A stretch of DNA of 41,355 nt, taken from NCBI GenBank assembly GCA_016868575.1, contig VGGL01000014.1, positions 1-41,355 of the forward strand. The letters are read 5' to 3'. Source of the stretch: Bacteroidota bacterium. Lineage in GTDB: Bacteria; Bacteroidota; Bacteroidia; Bacteroidales; FEN-979. This document shows, piece by piece, positions 1,948 to 12,613 of the stretch. A program made the translations under genes and the position numbers. The notes below the pieces were generated by a model that had not been told where the DNA came from, did no database searches, and saw only the letters and a program-made list of their open reading frames with translations. The first letter of the stretch is position 1. Each line of letters begins with the position of its first letter.

Positions 1948-2940
1948 ATGAACACAACGACATACCGATTGTTTAGAAGGGTCTTGTTGACGGGTCTGGT
2001 CTTCGGCATCCTTGTCATGTCCTCTTCCTGCCGGTCAAAGGAAGAACGGGAGCGGCGGAGGGGTGATAAACTCAAAGGGACGATCACCTTATCGGGCGCC
2101 TTTGCCCTCTACCCATTGGCTGTGAGATGGGCTGAAGTTTACCATACGATTCATCCGAAAGTAGTGATCAATATCTCCGCCGGAGGCGCTGGAAAAGGGA
2201 TGGCCGATGCGCTATCCGGGATGGTGGATTTGGGCATGTTTTCCAAAGAGATCAGTCCGCAGGAAGCAGCCCAGGGCGCTTGGTGGGTGGCGGTTGCCAA
2301 AGACGCCGTGTTGCCAACGATCAGCGACCAGAACCCCTATCTGGATGTGATCAAATCAAAAGGGCTTTCAAAAGATGAGTTCCGGGATATCTTCCTCACC
2401 GAAAAGATCCGTGACTGGAAGACTGCCCTGGGAGTTAACGGCCAGGATGAGATCCATGTGTATTCCCGCTCCGATGCCTGTGGAGCGGCCGAAGTCTGGG
2501 CGAAATACCTGGATAATAAAAAGCAGGAAGACCTTGTGGGCATTGGCTTAAATGGCGATCCCGGGGTAGCGGATGCGTTGCGGAAAGATCCGCTGGGCAT
2601 TGGATACAATAACCTCAATTTCACCTACGATCTTTCCACCCGTGTGAAATATAAAGGAATAGAAGTGATTCCGATTGATCTTAACAACAATGACAAGATC
2701 GATCCGGAAGAGAGCTTCTATGCTACCATTGATGACATCATGCATGCCATCCAGACCGGAGCTTATCCCTCTCCTCCCGCGCGGAAGCTCTATCTTGTAT
2801 CAAAAGGAAAACCTGAGGATCAGCTTGTTGTTGACTTTCTCCACTGGATCCTTACAGAAGGACAGAAATACGTACAGGAAGCCGGGTATATCAATCTTCC
2901 CGATTCCCTGGTCAGCGCTGAACGGCAAAAGATGGAATAA
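1948..2940 (+). CDS. pstS: Phosphate ABC transporter substrate-binding lipoprotein PstS
   Basis: This is a 330-residue periplasmic phosphate-binding protein of the PstS-like class. The N-terminus is a lipoprotein signal with the lipobox LVMSSSC, so it is probably anchored in the inner membrane. The phosphate-binding loop region LSGAFALYPLA follows the mature N-terminus, and typical PstS segments follow (SAGGAGKGMADALSG, IHVYSRSDACGAAEVW, GIGYNNLNFTYD). Unusually, residues 244-255 read DLNNNDKIDPEE, which fits the EF-hand calcium-loop pattern. It is the first of four pst genes in transporter order, three bases after psd. No phoU follows the operon. Confidence 0.9.
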   Translation: MNTTTYRLFRRVLLTGLVFGILVMSSSCRSKEERERRRGDKLKGTITLSGAFALYPLAVRWAEVYHTIHPKVVINISAGGAGKGMADALSGMVDLGMFSKEISPQEAAQGAWWVAVAKDAVLPTISDQNPYLDVIKSKGLSKDEFRDIFLTEKIRDWKTALGVNGQDEIHVYSRSDACGAAEVWAKYLDNKKQEDLVGIGLNGDPGVADALRKDPLGIGYNNLNFTYDLSTRVKYKGIEVIPIDLNNNDKIDPEESFYATIDDIMHAIQTGAYPSPPARKLYLVSKGKPEDQLVVDFLHWILTEGQKYVQEAGYINLPDSLVSAERQKME

Positions 2941-2952
2941 TATATATTCCCG

Positions 2953-3843
2953 ATGGAACTTTTCAACAGGCCGATCCGGCATCGCATCAACACCATTTGG
3001 ATGGTGCTTTGCCTGATCCTCATTGTGTCGCTTCCATTTATTCTGTCCATAGGGCTTTTTCTGAAATCCAGATTGTTACTGGAAGACCATTCCCTGTTTG
3101 ACCTGCTTTTCACAAAAGTGTGGAAACCCGGCGATGGGAAGTTTGGCTTTTATCCTTTCATTGTTGGTTCTGTCTGGGTTACCCTGATCGCCATGCTGAT
3201 CTCCGTACCCATCTGTCTCCTTACGGCAATACATGTCACCCAATACACCCGGAAGTATGTCCTGCGGATCATTCATCCGGCCATCGACATCCTGGCAGGG
3301 ATCCCCTCTGTGGTTTACGGTGTTTGGGGCATCCTGGTGATCGTCCCTTTTGTTTCCCGGTATTTGGCGCCCATCTTTGACTACCGCACCCTGGGATACA
3401 GCATCATTGCCGGCTCGCTGGTGCTTTCTGTGATGATCATCCCGTTCATGCTAAATATCCTCATTGAGATATTCCGTGCTATCCCCGTGGAGTTAAAGGA
3501 AGCGGCACTTTCGTTGGGTGCAACACGCTGGCAGGCGATCAAACAGGTACTGGTTAAAAAAGCTTTGCCGGGTATCATCGCAGCCTTTGGTTTTGGACTT
3601 GCCCGCGCCTTTGGAGAGACCATGGCCGTGCTGATGGTGGTGGGAAATGTCGTTAAAATCCCCAAAAATATTTTTGATCCCGGCTACCCGCTGCCTGCTC
3701 TTATTGCAAACAACTATGGGGAGATGCTCTCCATTCCGCAATATGACTCGGCGCTGATGTTTGCGGCGCTCGTTCTTCTGGGGGTATCGTTATTCTTTAA
3801 TGTTATTATGCACTTCCTCATCTCCCGTTACAATAAATATTGA
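2953..3843 (+). CDS. pstC: Phosphate ABC transporter permease PstC
   Basis: This is a 296-residue inner-membrane permease of the MetI-like (BPD_transp_1) family with about six transmembrane segments. The EAA-type loop that contacts the ATPase is EAALSLGATRWQAIKQVL (about 180-197), followed by LPGIIAAFGFGLARAFGETMAV, the characteristic PstC block. The N-terminus lacks the long extension seen in some PstC proteins. It pairs with PstA (3-base gap) to form the channel. The start at 2953 is 12 bases after pstS and gives a short cytoplasmic tail before the first membrane segment. Confidence 0.92.
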   Translation: MELFNRPIRHRINTIWMVLCLILIVSLPFILSIGLFLKSRLLLEDHSLFDLLFTKVWKPGDGKFGFYPFIVGSVWVTLIAMLISVPICLLTAIHVTQYTRKYVLRIIHPAIDILAGIPSVVYGVWGILVIVPFVSRYLAPIFDYRTLGYSIIAGSLVLSVMIIPFMLNILIEIFRAIPVELKEAALSLGATRWQAIKQVLVKKALPGIIAAFGFGLARAFGETMAVLMVVGNVVKIPKNIFDPGYPLPALIANNYGEMLSIPQYDSALMFAALVLLGVSLFFNVIMHFLISRYNKY

Positions 3844-3846
3844 TCT

Positions 3847-4707
3847 ATGTCACGCATACTCAAAAATACAGAAGAGAATATTTTCCGGGTATTGATGTTC
3901 ATCTCCACCACCTTTATCCTGACCATTCTGGCGATCATTATTTACAGCATTTTTGAAAAGGGGATTGAATTCATCTCCTGGGATATGTTAACCCAAACAC
4001 CCAAAGGAGGTTATTATTACGGAAAGGAAGGCGGTATTCTCAACGCGATTACAGGTTCCCTACTCCTCGCCGGAAGCGCTACCCTGCTAGCCCTGGTGAT
4101 CGGACTTCCGTTCGCCCTCTTCCTGAATGTTTTCCTGATCCGCCGGAAGAAGTTGGTTGCCTTTATTCGATTCCTGCTCGACATGATCTGGGGTATCCCG
4201 TCAATCGTCTATGGCGCATTCGGGTTTACCCTGATGATCTTTCTGGGCATCAAAACCTCGCTGCTCGCCGGGATTATCGTCGTCACACTTTTTATCCTGC
4301 CGATCATGATCCGTTCCATTGATGAGATCCTTCGAACAGTACCTATCGGCCTGATGGAAGCGTCCTATTCCCTGGGTTCCAACCGGTCGGAAACAGCCTT
4401 CCGGGTGTTTGTCAGGCAGGCATTTTCAGGGGTGATCACGGCCTTCCTCCTCTCCTTTGGGCGGGCGATCGGCGATGCCGCTTCTGTTCTTTTCACGGCG
4501 GGGTATACCGATAACCTCCCCAGTTCCCTGACAGAACCGGTAGCCACCTTACCCCTCTCGATCTTTTTCCAGCTCAGCTCCCCGGTACCAGAAGTCCAGG
4601 GCAGGGCGTATGCTTCTGCCATGGTGCTGACTTTCATCATCCTGTTGGCCAGCCTTTTCTCTCGGGGAATCGGTAAACGTTATCACAAGACCAAAATCAA
4701 TTTCTGA
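3847..4707 (+). CDS. pstA: Phosphate ABC transporter permease PstA
   Basis: This is a 286-residue MetI-like permease with about six membrane segments, the partner of PstC. Family features include WDMLTQTPKGGYYYGKEGGI in the first periplasmic loop and the ATPase-coupling loop MEASYSLGSNRSETAFRVFV, followed by SGVITAFLLSFGRAIGDAASVLFTAG. The segment from SLTEPVATLPLSIFFQLS to RAYASAMVL is the usual PstA C-terminal region. It starts three bases after the pstC stop and ends eight bases before pstB, so coordinated translation is likely. Confidence 0.92.
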   Translation: MSRILKNTEENIFRVLMFISTTFILTILAIIIYSIFEKGIEFISWDMLTQTPKGGYYYGKEGGILNAITGSLLLAGSATLLALVIGLPFALFLNVFLIRRKKLVAFIRFLLDMIWGIPSIVYGAFGFTLMIFLGIKTSLLAGIIVVTLFILPIMIRSIDEILRTVPIGLMEASYSLGSNRSETAFRVFVRQAFSGVITAFLLSFGRAIGDAASVLFTAGYTDNLPSSLTEPVATLPLSIFFQLSSPVPEVQGRAYASAMVLTFIILLASLFSRGIGKRYHKTKINF

Positions 4708-4715
4708 AAACCGGC

Positions 4716-5480
4716 ATGGAACCTAATCTGCAAAAAATCGATATCCGGAATCTCAATGTTTATCATGGAAAGGATAAGATCCTGAAGGATGTGAACATCA
4801 CGATCCCGGAGAACAAGATCACCGTCATCCTGGGACCTTCGGGCTGCGGAAAGACGACCCTGCTGAAATGCCTGAACCGGCTGATCGACCTGTATCCGGA
4901 ACTGAAAGCAGAAGGGCAGGTGCTGATCAATGGAAAGGATGTGTTGAATACCTCGGAAGATATCCACAATATCCGGCAACAGATGGGTTTGCTTTCACAG
5001 CGTCCTTATCCTCTGCCCATGACCATCTATAATAATATCGCTTACGGTTTACGGCTCAGGGGTGTAAAAGGCCGGCGGGAGCTTCACCGACAGGTGATGC
5101 ACTATTTACAGATGGTTAACCTATGGGATGAAGTGAAGAACCGTTTGCGGGCTCCGGCCTCAAGGCTTTCCATCGGCCAGCAGCAGCGGCTCTGTCTGGC
5201 ACGCGGATTGGCAGTGAACCCCGAGATCATCCTTGCCGATGAACCCACTTCAGCCCTCGACCCGATCTCTAGTCAGATCATTGAAGAGGAATTCATTACC
5301 CTGAAGGACAAGTACACCATCGTCCTGGTTACCCACATTCTCCGCCAGGCCCGCCGGATCGCCGATCATGTCATCTTCATGTACCTCGGCGAAGTGATTG
5401 AATCAGGACCGCCTGAACAGGTACTTGAAAATCCCCAGATGGAAAAAACCAAGGCTTATCTGAAAGGGGCTTTTAACTAA
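4716..5480 (+). CDS. pstB: Phosphate ABC transporter ATP-binding protein PstB
   Basis: This is a 254-residue cytoplasmic ATPase that energises phosphate import through PstCA. Walker A is GPSGCGKT (40-47), Walker B with the catalytic Glu is IILADEP (171-177), and the D-loop is SALDP. The signature motif reads LSIGQQQRL (151-159), where PstB and nearly all ABC ATPases have LSGGQ; the isoleucine at 153 is notable. The segment SQRPYPLPMTIYNNIAYG matches the PstB Q-loop region. Length is normal for the family. It is the last gene of the plus-strand string; a 172-base gap separates it from the convergent radical SAM gene. Confidence 0.93.
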   Translation: MEPNLQKIDIRNLNVYHGKDKILKDVNITIPENKITVILGPSGCGKTTLLKCLNRLIDLYPELKAEGQVLINGKDVLNTSEDIHNIRQQMGLLSQRPYPLPMTIYNNIAYGLRLRGVKGRRELHRQVMHYLQMVNLWDEVKNRLRAPASRLSIGQQQRLCLARGLAVNPEIILADEPTSALDPISSQIIEEEFITLKDKYTIVLVTHILRQARRIADHVIFMYLGEVIESGPPEQVLENPQMEKTKAYLKGAFN

Positions 5481-8577: not shown

Positions 8578-8604
8578 ATTACACCTCCGGGTGTAATAAC
8601 TTTG
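8578..8604 (+). promoter_or_regulatory. Palindrome overlapping the sigma-factor promoter -7 element
   Basis: Two perfect 8-base arms, ATTACACC (8578-8585) and GGTGTAAT (8590-8597), flank TCCG. The right arm runs directly into TAACTTTG (8597-8604), an exact match to the Bacteroidota -7 consensus TAnnTTTG. A start site near 8610 would favour ATG 8629 as the true start of the sigma factor. A dimeric regulator bound here would block or modulate the promoter. No good -33 TTTG is seen upstream. Confidence 0.45.
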
Positions 8605-8628
8605 TCGTGTTATCGTCTTAAACCCAAT

Positions 8629-9063
8629 ATGACACCTGCAGAATTTCAGGAAACGGTCCTCATCCATAAGAACAAACTATTCAGGTTTGCCAAGCGGATG
8701 CTAGAAGATGAAGAAGATGCGAGGGATGTGGTGCAGGATACCTTCCTGAAACTCTGGGCCAAAAGAAAAGACCTGGAATCGGTATCAAATATGGAAGCCT
8801 TTTCAATGCGCACGGTAAAAAATCTCTGCATCGACCGGATGCGATCCCTGGGTTATCGGAACAACCTGACCAGCCTGGATGTGGCTGAGAGGAGCGAAAA
8901 ACCGGGGAAGGCTGCTGATGCATTGGAAATGAAAGACCTGAAAAAATTCATCCAACAGATCATCAGCCAATTGCCGGAACAACAAAAGATGGTCATCCAG
9001 ATGCGGGATATTGAAGGTTATGAATACAAAGGAGATTTACGGCCTCATCAAAAAGTATTTTGA
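8629..9063 (+). pseudogene. ECF-type RNA polymerase sigma factor, C-terminally truncated
   Basis: This is an ECF sigma-70 factor. Region 2 is intact (KNKLFRFAKRMLEDEEDARDVVQDTFLKLW, then AFSMRTVKNLCIDRM), and the first helices of region 4 are present (FIQQIISQLPEQQKMVIQMRDIEGYEY). The sequence then switches to GDLRPHQKVF and stops, so the DNA-binding helix-turn-helix of region 4, about 40-50 residues, is missing. The break falls exactly where the downstream gene begins: its start ATGAATACAAAGGAGAT is what codons for YEYKEI would look like, so a deletion between two similar short sequences is the simplest explanation. ATG 8629 is preferred because the promoter-like TAACTTTG ends at 8604; an upstream in-frame ATG exists at 8554. 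The product (144 residues) is probably non-functional. Confidence 0.75.
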
Positions 9064-9562
9064 CGGCGAAACGACCCTTGAAGAGGAACAACAACTTCGC
9101 ACGTTTTTTTCGCAAGAAGATGTCCCTGAGGAACTTGTGGCATTCAAGGAGTTATTTGGCTATTATCATGCAAGTGCTGAAGAGTCCCTGGATGACACCT
9201 TTGAAAAATCCATCATGGCACAGATCGAAAAGGATGTCATCAAGCCCATTGGCTTCAACAGAAAAAAGATGTATTCCATCATGGGGATTGCAGCCGGTAT
9301 CCTGATCCTGATAGGAGTCCTGTTTTACACAGATTTCTTCCAATCATTCCAGACCGATTCATCCGGGTCGGATGCGGAATCCGAAATGGCCTATCTTCAA
9401 ACCAAACAAGCCTTGCTGTTGATTTCTACAAGCCTCAACAAAGGTCTTGACCAGGCCTCCAAGTTATCTGCTTTCAACAAAGGAGTTGAACACATGAACA
9501 AGTTATCGGCCTTCTATCAATGCGAAACAAAAGTCCTTCATCCAAACACCTTAGATAAATAA
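9020..9562 (+). CDS. Putative anti-sigma factor, single-pass membrane protein
   Basis: This encodes a 180-residue protein. The N-terminal part (MNTKEIYGLIKKYFDGETTLEEEQQLRTFF) is the short helical segment common to Bacteroidota proteins encoded directly after ECF sigma factors, where it is thought to bind the sigma factor. One transmembrane segment lies at about residues 85-105 (IMGIAAGILILIGVLFYTDFF), with a periplasmic C-terminal tail rich in leucine and serine. I do not see a zinc-binding HxxxCxxC motif. ATG 9020 lies inside the truncated sigma ORF in another frame. Anti-sigma function is inferred from position and architecture. Confidence 0.65.
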   Translation: MNTKEIYGLIKKYFDGETTLEEEQQLRTFFSQEDVPEELVAFKELFGYYHASAEESLDDTFEKSIMAQIEKDVIKPIGFNRKKMYSIMGIAAGILILIGVLFYTDFFQSFQTDSSGSDAESEMAYLQTKQALLLISTSLNKGLDQASKLSAFNKGVEHMNKLSAFYQCETKVLHPNTLDK

Positions 9563-9578
9563 CCAATACTACAAAACC

Positions 9579-10112
9579 ATGAAACGTGTAATCATTTCAT
9601 TCCTGATCATTTTCCTGCTGGGTGCAGGAGTCAGGGGGCAAAGCCCAATCGACAAATTCTTTGATAAATATATGGGACAAGACGGGTTTACCACCGTTGT
9701 CATCTCCAAAGAGATGTTCCAGATGTTTAAAGGTATGAAGACGGACAATGACAATAAAGCGATCGGAGAGATCATGAACCAGCTTGAAGGATTAAAAGTG
9801 GTTGCTTTCGACCGCGATTCGTCCAACAAATATACGGTCTCACAACTCTACAGTGAAGCACTCGCCGCCATTCCATTCGGCACGTACAAAGTTCTGATGC
9901 AGGTCAAAGAGAAAGACCAGGATGTAACTTTTTATGCCAAAGATGGACCCAAAGGCAAGCTAAGCGAATTGCTGATGCTGATGAAGTCTGGGAAGGAGAT
10001 GGCCGCTTTAAGCATAACCGGTTTGATCGACCTCAGCACCGTTTCGGAGTTATCCAAGTCGATGAATTTCAAAGGGATGGATAAGCTCAATAAACTGAAG
10101 GAAAAGAAGTGA
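9579..10112 (+). CDS. DUF4252 family exported protein
   Basis: This is a 177-residue protein with a clear signal peptide (MKRVIISFLIIFLLGAGVRGQ). The mature part starts SPIDKFFDKYMGQDGFTTVVISKEMFQMF, typical of DUF4252, a Bacteroidota family whose genes regularly sit behind a sigma factor/anti-sigma pair. Its function is unknown; a periplasmic or envelope role in the response controlled by the sigma factor is possible. It lies 16 bases after the anti-sigma-like gene, so it belongs to the same operon. With the sigma factor broken, its regulation in this strain is uncertain. Confidence 0.8.
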   Translation: MKRVIISFLIIFLLGAGVRGQSPIDKFFDKYMGQDGFTTVVISKEMFQMFKGMKTDNDNKAIGEIMNQLEGLKVVAFDRDSSNKYTVSQLYSEALAAIPFGTYKVLMQVKEKDQDVTFYAKDGPKGKLSELLMLMKSGKEMAALSITGLIDLSTVSELSKSMNFKGMDKLNKLKEKK

Positions 10113-10204
10113 AACCAAAGCGCGTCAGGTAAATCCCGGCGGTGTAGTCAGGATGGAAGTCCTGTATCTGAAAATGTTTATCTTCGCTCTCCAATTTGCA
10201 AGAT

Positions 10205-11053
10205 ATGAAACATCAGATCGCAGGACTTCTTCTTTTAGTATTGATCGCCGGATGTTCACCATCTCCTGAACAAGGTGATTCCAAAGTCATAACCGTTAGC
10301 ATTCAGCCACAGAAATACCTTGTCAGGCAAATTGGCGGAAATGACTGGTATATCAATGTGCTGGTTCCGCCAGGTTCAAGCCCTGAGACTTATGAACCCG
10401 GTCCTTTGCAGGTCAAGGATCTTGCGCAATCGGCCATCTATTTTGCCAATGGATACCTGGAGTTTGAACATGGGATCAATGGAAAAATTTCAGGACTTAA
10501 CAATCAACTTTCCATCATCGATCTTTCTGAGAACCTCTCACTTATCCAAGGGGATGATCATCATGGCGGCACAGATCCACATTACTGGCTCGGGCCGCAA
10601 GAGATCAAAATCATGGCTCAAACAATTGCTTCTGCTCTTCAGGAAAAAGATCCTGCAAACAAAGAACGCTATACCGCCAATCTCTCCACGTTCTTATCTC
10701 TCATGGACAGCCTGGATGTCAAAATCAGAAAACGTTTAGCGGAAAGGAAAAGGGATGATTTCATCGTTTTTCATCCGGCACTGGCCTATTTCAGCCGCCA
10801 GTACGGGCTGAATCAATTGGCATTGGAGGAAGAGGGAAAAAATCCTTCTGCAGCACACCTTAAAAGCTTGGTAGACATGGCCAGGGAGAAAGGGATCAGG
10901 CATCTTTTCGTTCAGCGTCAGTTCGATGAGCGAAACGCCGAGGCGCTGGCCAGAGAAATCAAGGGAGAACTCGTGGTTTTTGACCCGCTGGAAGAAAACC
11001 TGGAGAAAAACCTGTTATACCTTGCTGAAAAACTATCTATCGCGCTGAACTAA
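10205..11053 (+). CDS. Zinc/manganese ABC transporter substrate-binding lipoprotein
   Basis: This is a 282-residue lipoprotein (lipobox LIAGC, Cys17) of the ZnuA/TroA cluster A-I family, which captures Zn2+ or Mn2+ in the periplasm. Likely metal ligands are a His in the LEFEHGIN region, the His of DPHYWL after a short His-containing loop (DDHHGG), the His of VFHPALAYF and the acidic residue of FDPLEENL. The short loop does not settle zinc against manganese. ATG 10205 is preferred to an upstream TTG (10196) because the signal peptide then begins with MKHQ. It is followed after one base by its ATPase gene. A weak -7-like TATCTTCG lies at 10179-10186. Confidence 0.88.
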   Translation: MKHQIAGLLLLVLIAGCSPSPEQGDSKVITVSIQPQKYLVRQIGGNDWYINVLVPPGSSPETYEPGPLQVKDLAQSAIYFANGYLEFEHGINGKISGLNNQLSIIDLSENLSLIQGDDHHGGTDPHYWLGPQEIKIMAQTIASALQEKDPANKERYTANLSTFLSLMDSLDVKIRKRLAERKRDDFIVFHPALAYFSRQYGLNQLALEEEGKNPSAAHLKSLVDMAREKGIRHLFVQRQFDERNAEALAREIKGELVVFDPLEENLEKNLLYLAEKLSIALN

Positions 11054-11054
11054 G

Positions 11055-11792
11055 ATGGCCACTCTACTTGAGTTGGAACACATTACGGCCGGATATGGTG
11101 AGGAGATCATCTTCCGGGACGTTTCCCTGGTGGTGGAAAAGGGGGCGTTTATCGGGGTGATTGGTCCAAATGGAGGAGGCAAAACAACCCTTGTGAAGAT
11201 CATCCTGGGACTGCTCAAACCCATCCAGGGAAGTATCCGGAGTTATTTGGAGACAGAGATTGGGTATCTTCCGCAGAATAACCCCATTGACCGGAAGTTT
11301 CCGATTACAGTGCGGGAAGTGGTGATGTCAGGACTGATCTCAAAAGACAAGTTTTTTGTGCGGTTTGATCGGGAACACCGAAAAAAGGCAGAATCCATCA
11401 TGGAACGGATGGGCATTCTCCATCTCAGGAATAAATCGGTTGGAATGATTTCCGGAGGACAACTGCAAAGGGCATTACTAGGCAGGGCGATCATTTCAGA
11501 CCCTCATTTGCTTGTGCTGGATGAACCGGGTACCTTTGTTGACAACCGTTTTGAAAAGGACCTCTATGAATTGTTGGTGGAACTGAATAATACGGTAACT
11601 ATCATGATGGTTTCGCATGATGTGGGAACGATCTCCGCCTATGTAAAGTCGATTGTCTGCATCAACCGGAACCTGCATTATCACCGGTCAAACATCATCA
11701 CCCCGGAACAGCTCGCTCAATACAATTGCCCGATCCAGCTGATCACCCATGGAGATGTACCACACACGGTATTGAGCTCCCACAAAGACTGA
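11055..11792 (+). CDS. Zinc/manganese ABC transporter ATP-binding protein
   Basis: This is a 245-residue ATPase of the ZnuC/MntB class. Walker A is GPNGGGKTT (about 35-43), the signature is MISGGQLQRALLGRAI, Walker B is LLVLDEPGTFVD and the switch His is in MMVSHDVG. The segment GYLPQNNPIDRKFPITVREVV is characteristic of zinc/manganese importers. It is translationally close to both neighbours (one base after the binding protein, two bases before the permease). The cytoplasmic protein drives uptake through the permease encoded next. Confidence 0.9.
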   Translation: MATLLELEHITAGYGEEIIFRDVSLVVEKGAFIGVIGPNGGGKTTLVKIILGLLKPIQGSIRSYLETEIGYLPQNNPIDRKFPITVREVVMSGLISKDKFFVRFDREHRKKAESIMERMGILHLRNKSVGMISGGQLQRALLGRAIISDPHLLVLDEPGTFVDNRFEKDLYELLVELNNTVTIMMVSHDVGTISAYVKSIVCINRNLHYHRSNIITPEQLAQYNCPIQLITHGDVPHTVLSSHKD

Positions 11793-11794
11793 AC

Positions 11795-12613
11795 ATGATG
11801 GATGTCCTGCAGTATCAATTCTATCAATATGCCTTGTGGGCCGCCTTGCTGGTAAGTTTATCATGCGGAATTATCGGGACGTATATTACGGCCCGGCGCA
11901 TGGTATTCCTGAGCGGCGGTATCACCCATGCCTCCTTTGGGGGTATCGGGTTGGCCTATTTTCTGGGCATGAACCCGATGGTTGGCGCCATCATTTTTGC
12001 ACTTCTCTCTGCTTTCGGTATTGAGGTGCTTTCCAAAAAAGCAGATATCCGGCAGGATTCAGCAATCGGAATTCTCTGGACCATCGGGATGGCCATCGGC
12101 ATCGTCTTTATTTTTCTGACTCCCGGTTATGCTTCCAATCTTATGAGCTTCCTCTTCGGAAGTATCCTGACGGTTAGCTTGCAGGATCTTTTGCTGATGG
12201 GGTTAATCACTTTCACCCTGTTCCTGATCTTCCTGATACTTTTCAAGCAGATCCTCTTCATCGCTTTTGATGAGGAGTATGCTTCTACCCATAAAATCAG
12301 GGTGAAATTGCTCAACTACCTGATGATTTCGCTTGTGAGCCTTACCATTGTGATTGGTATCCGGGTCGTGGGTGTGATCATGGTCATATCCATGCTCACC
12401 ATTCCTCAAGCTATAGCCGGATTGTTCACCAATCGGTTCGGGAAAATGATCCTGTGGTCGATTCTCTTCGCCTTTATCGGGTCTGTTATCGGATTATATG
12501 TATCATATGCGGTGAATATCCCTTCAGGTGCAACCATTATTCTTACTCTTGCCGCTATCTATTTGATTATTAAACTACTGAAACTTTCCTTGGGAACATT
12601 TCAAACCAAATGA
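11795..12613 (+). CDS. Zinc/manganese ABC transporter permease
   Basis: This is a 272-residue ABC-3 family permease (ZnuB/MntC-like) with about eight to nine membrane segments. Family features are ARRMVFLSGGITHASFGGIGLAYF near the N-terminus, the region GILWTIGMAIGIVFIFLTPGY, and the ATPase-coupling segment DEEYASTHKIRVKLLNYLMI. ATG 11795 or the adjacent ATG 11798 follows the ATPase stop by two bases; an upstream in-frame start would overlap the ATPase gene by 67 bases and adds a non-conserved tail, so it is not used. It completes a three-gene metal importer and is convergent with the outer-membrane gene at 12640. Confidence 0.9.
   Translation: MMDVLQYQFYQYALWAALLVSLSCGIIGTYITARRMVFLSGGITHASFGGIGLAYFLGMNPMVGAIIFALLSAFGIEVLSKKADIRQDSAIGILWTIGMAIGIVFIFLTPGYASNLMSFLFGSILTVSLQDLLLMGLITFTLFLIFLILFKQILFIAFDEEYASTHKIRVKLLNYLMISLVSLTIVIGIRVVGVIMVISMLTIPQAIAGLFTNRFGKMILWSILFAFIGSVIGLYVSYAVNIPSGATIILTLAAIYLIIKLLKLSLGTFQTK

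Follow-up and report, generated by a model that had tools for sequence, protein, structure and literature searches.

The window analysed here (the whole stretch of 41,355 nucleotides) carries what we take, with a probability of roughly 0.8, to be a young loss-of-function allele of an ECF sigma factor gene of the GFO_1088/PG0214 family, produced by one in-frame deletion between two short repeats (Table 1). The open reading frame starts at 8629 and runs to a stop codon at 9061-9063, its end reading ...MRDIEGYEYKGDLRPHQKVF; the product, which ends in ...LPEQQKMVIQMRDIEGYEYKGDLRPHQKVF, retains region 2 together with the N-terminal half of region 4, but no recognition helix. The Pfam profile of region 4 (PF08281) matches this product only at profile positions 4-30 of 54, compared with 3-54 and 4-54 for two relatives whose gene is intact, which agrees with the initial annotation, where a sigma factor that is normal up to RDIEGYEY and has lost its helix-turn-helix was placed at the same coordinates. 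When aligned to solved ECF sigma factors, region 4 of an intact relative runs on through the stretch that is missing in the window. The NCBIfam equivalog model NF058625 gives 147.8 bits, above its curated cut-off of 130, and is covered at model positions 1-133 of 170. Thus, the window gene is a truncated copy of an NF058625 member rather than a working member: it shares with that family the operon order of sigma, anti-sigma-like and DUF4252 genes as well as the overlap with the next gene, but is devoid of model positions 134-170, which hold the C-terminal half of region 4 and, within it, the recognition helix.

Table 1 Features of the truncated sigma factor locus, in positions of the window.
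Feature	Position	Strand	Remarks
Conserved ECF-type promoter TGTAATA-N15-CGTCT	8592..8618	+	Predicted; 10 nt before the sigma ATG
ECF sigma factor gene, NF058625 sigma_PG0214 / GFO_1088 family	8629..9063	+	144 aa; relatives about 171 aa
Deletion junction TATGAATAC	9019..9027	+	Y-E-Y of region 4 (DIEGYEY) coincides with the C-terminal Y-E-Y at the anti-sigma start
Anti-sigma-like membrane protein gene	9020..9562	+	180 aa; one apparent transmembrane segment; intact; putative role, from position
DUF4252 protein gene	9579..10112	+	177 aa; N-terminal signal-like stretch; intact; PF14060, E=3.9e-24

The family-level comparison encompassed 43 genomes, with 37 sigma loci examined besides the window. 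In all 37, a complete sigma gene with a full region 4 lies directly upstream of the anti-sigma-like gene, and the C-terminus of its product, usually YEYQRN, overlaps the anti-sigma start. Orthologues of the anti-sigma-like gene are present in 38 of the 43 genomes, the window's own included. In two family genomes (G001 and G066, 98% and 91% complete, respectively), searches for the anti-sigma-like gene and for the exact promoter both came back empty, and these genomes may have lost the entire operon.

At the junction, the ATG of the anti-sigma-like gene (9020-9022) is located, in another frame, within the sigma codons TAT GAA TAC (9019-9027), so that, as had been pointed out from the sequence at the outset, the same letters can be read as sigma codons and as the start of the downstream gene. 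The tyrosine of DIEGY and the tyrosine of the C-terminus are one single codon in the window sigma; in the family-level relatives, the distance from the DIEGY tyrosine to the C-terminal tyrosine of YEYQRN is exactly 37 codons (37/37). Given this constant spacing, 111 bp is the best estimate for the deletion, the simplest reading being that 37 codons were removed in the sigma frame, in place of the 130-150 bases that the initial annotation had estimated; depending on the unbroken ancestor of the window lineage, the true size could be larger or smaller by a multiple of 3. Measured against the anti-sigma ATG, the sigma frame of the window does not differ from that of the family relatives. The two genes overlap by 44 nt in the window, and the usual overlap among the family relatives is 20 nt; four intact loci from outside the family but within the order (L043, L117, L124 and L125) also show an overlap of about 44 nt and a comparably long tail, and therefore the long tail and the stop codon of the window sigma are probably native and form an ordinary C-terminus. 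The register and these long overlaps in intact relatives rule out the out-of-frame fusion that had been proposed: the sigma frame is kept, and by extending into the anti-sigma gene it forms the overlap that is normal for the family.

Compared in register, the two breakpoint places of the relatives are identical over up to 7-8 bp (TATGAAT, ATATGAAT), and the exact stretches shared near both breakpoints span 5-11 bp, none being longer than 11 bp. The only repeat left near the junction of the window itself, GGAACAACAA at 8976 and 9085 (109 apart), flanks no end of the deletion and was attributed to chance.

Repeats of 7-8 bp suffice for slipped-strand deletion in bacteria. A slipped-strand or other short-repeat event would have fused the TATGA(A)T-type sequence within DIEGYE(F/Y) with its match at the sigma/anti-sigma overlap, a single deletion that took out 37 codons, or about 111 bp, without shifting the frame, as both copies of the repeat encode Y-E-Y in the same frame. 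The repeat itself arises from two unrelated constraints, namely, the region 4 motif GYE(F/Y) and the anti-sigma ATG inside the sigma C-terminus. The initially suggested mode of origin, a single deletion across a pair of short similar sequences, is retained as the probable mechanism, with the internal Y-E-Y/F codons and the C-terminal Y-E-Y codons as the two sequences. As in RecA-independent, slipped-strand deletions between short direct repeats, two short near-identical sequences would have lain about 100 bp apart, with one left at the junction; nothing notable sets the window case apart from such deletions in bacteria.

An alternative is that the organism possesses the full gene and that the assembler, or a chimeric read, fused the two similar stretches. 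The assembly is fragmented (224 contigs, 94% completeness, 4% contamination), and the remnant and the promoter resemble those of a working gene, as this explanation would have it. However, the shared stretches of 5-11 bp are far shorter than the k-mers usually employed in assembly (21 or more), so that collapse by an assembler is not expected, and the join is exact, in frame and embedded in a long contig with normal neighbours. We therefore consider an artefact unlikely; the deletion may also be a minority variant.

Returning to the deletion, region 4.2 of a sigma factor reads the −35 element. With this region gone, the short sigma is expected to be unable to activate the promoter of its own gene, and it is from the loss of region 4.2 that we infer the loss of function; the anti-sigma and DUF4252 genes are still present, although their expression driven by the sigma factor should cease. 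Both partner genes are intact, in line with the initial annotation, and the operon with the anti-sigma-like membrane protein and the DUF4252 protein is present in the window as it is in the relatives. The DUF4252 protein scores 100.8 bits with NF058626 (GFO_1090), below the cut-off of 150, and is related to that family. The product of 9020-9562 matched no Pfam or NCBIfam family above cut-off, anti-sigma domain families included, and the Pfam matches of the anti-sigma alignment fell below the cut-offs and were judged to be noise; its putative anti-sigma role follows from its position in the operon. Comparable gene sets have been described in Porphyromonas gingivalis: PG_0214-0216 and PG_0985-0987 each consist of genes for a sigma factor, for a hypothetical protein and for a DUF4252 protein, with joint up-regulation reported, and PG_0215 has been called a putative anti-sigma factor (PMC10101095). 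These sets resemble the window operon in their described gene content, and the sigma genes of P. gingivalis are, unlike that of the window, presumably intact. Judging from the translations, the segment directly downstream of the DUF4252 gene (10196-12613) encodes a znuABC-like set made up of a metal-binding lipoprotein and the ATPase and permease of an ABC transporter, and 1948-5480 holds a phosphate-type ABC transporter cluster with a substrate-binding protein, an ATPase and two permeases.

The sigma operon is preceded by a conserved promoter-like motif, TGTAATA-N15-CGTCT, which is found with the 15-nt spacer at 38 of the 38 family loci, the window included (one has TGTAATG). The gap between this motif and the sigma ATG is nearly constant, 9-11 nt in the family loci, which suggests that the 5' leader is very short or missing altogether. 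In the window, the predicted promoter is of the autoregulatory type and intact (TGTAATA-N15-CGTCT-N10-ATG at 8592-8631; the consensus was derived here). The window genome contains a single exact match, located before the sigma operon, and most family genomes contain one or two; given so few sites, the sigma factor probably controls mainly its own operon. Accordingly, the initial statement on the loss of the regulon's sigma factor holds mainly in the sense that self-activation of the operon should be lost, the promoter being present about 1-2 times per genome, before the sigma factor's own operon. A copy with one mismatch, TGTAACA-N15-CGTCT (L064:1501-1527, i.e. G000:C57:8777-8803), lies about 31 nt before a putative outer-membrane beta-barrel gene; it is possible that this site is a further target or that it belongs to another ECF sigma factor. 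Overall, one-mismatch matches occur at background level.

In a comparison with 7 outgroups, the sigma remnant was as close to them as the intact ingroup genes are (difference +0.005, 95% CI −0.031 to 0.039); nor did its two partner genes, anti-sigma and DUF4252, show any acceleration. None of the 8 positions that are invariant elsewhere has changed in the remnant (0/8). Relaxed selection on the remnant, as might be read from a sigma identity lower than the corresponding anti-sigma identity would lead one to expect, was rejected on the strength of this relative-rate test; the low identity reflects the deep placement of the window's genus. With the promoter intact and the remnant evolving no faster than its intact relatives, the loss appears to be recent. 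No spare region 4, region 4 fragment or close paralogue was found in the genome assembly that includes the window; the other sigma-like matches, 7 in number, are all complete ECF genes with 25-30% identity.

The intact promoter and the unaccelerated remnant are also expected of a short protein that is still functional, be it as a sigma factor acting through the −10 element only, as a competitor for core binding or as an anti-sigma decoy, and the reading frame is open with region 2 intact. However, these facts fit a recent loss too. Furthermore, region 4.2 is kept in every intact relative, and the promoter includes a strongly conserved −35 element, the recognition of which by ECF sigma factors requires region 4. 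Continued function of the short protein thus seems very improbable, and slightly more improbable still is the specific version in which selection maintains the 144-aa product as a region 2-only competitor or decoy and another sigma factor serves the original promoter.

The truncation is unmatched in a broader sample as well. Among the matches listed from a draw of 393 genomes at the order level, the window sigma alone stops at query residue 132 and the others reach at least residue 158; no second case of truncation appeared among these matches. The possibility that homologues naturally end at this residue and that nothing is missing, which the initial annotation had raised, is refuted by the full region 4 of the 37 family relatives (37/37) and of all other order-level matches listed. 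Among the publications that our literature searches covered, none reports this deletion.

The truncated gene is a case of ordinary gene breakage in an uncultured Bacteroidota genome that leaves general understanding unchanged, and the family promoter consensus TGTAATA-N15-CGTCT provides a testable prediction. The state of the operon suggests that the loss of a sigma factor can precede the decay of its partner genes. Beyond that, this locus is a clean example of how gene overlap can create a built-in weak spot: the start codon of the anti-sigma gene forces a TATGA-type sequence at the sigma C-terminus, in frame with the Y-E-Y/F codons 111 bp upstream, and therefore one slip would remove, in frame, the half of region 4 that reads DNA.
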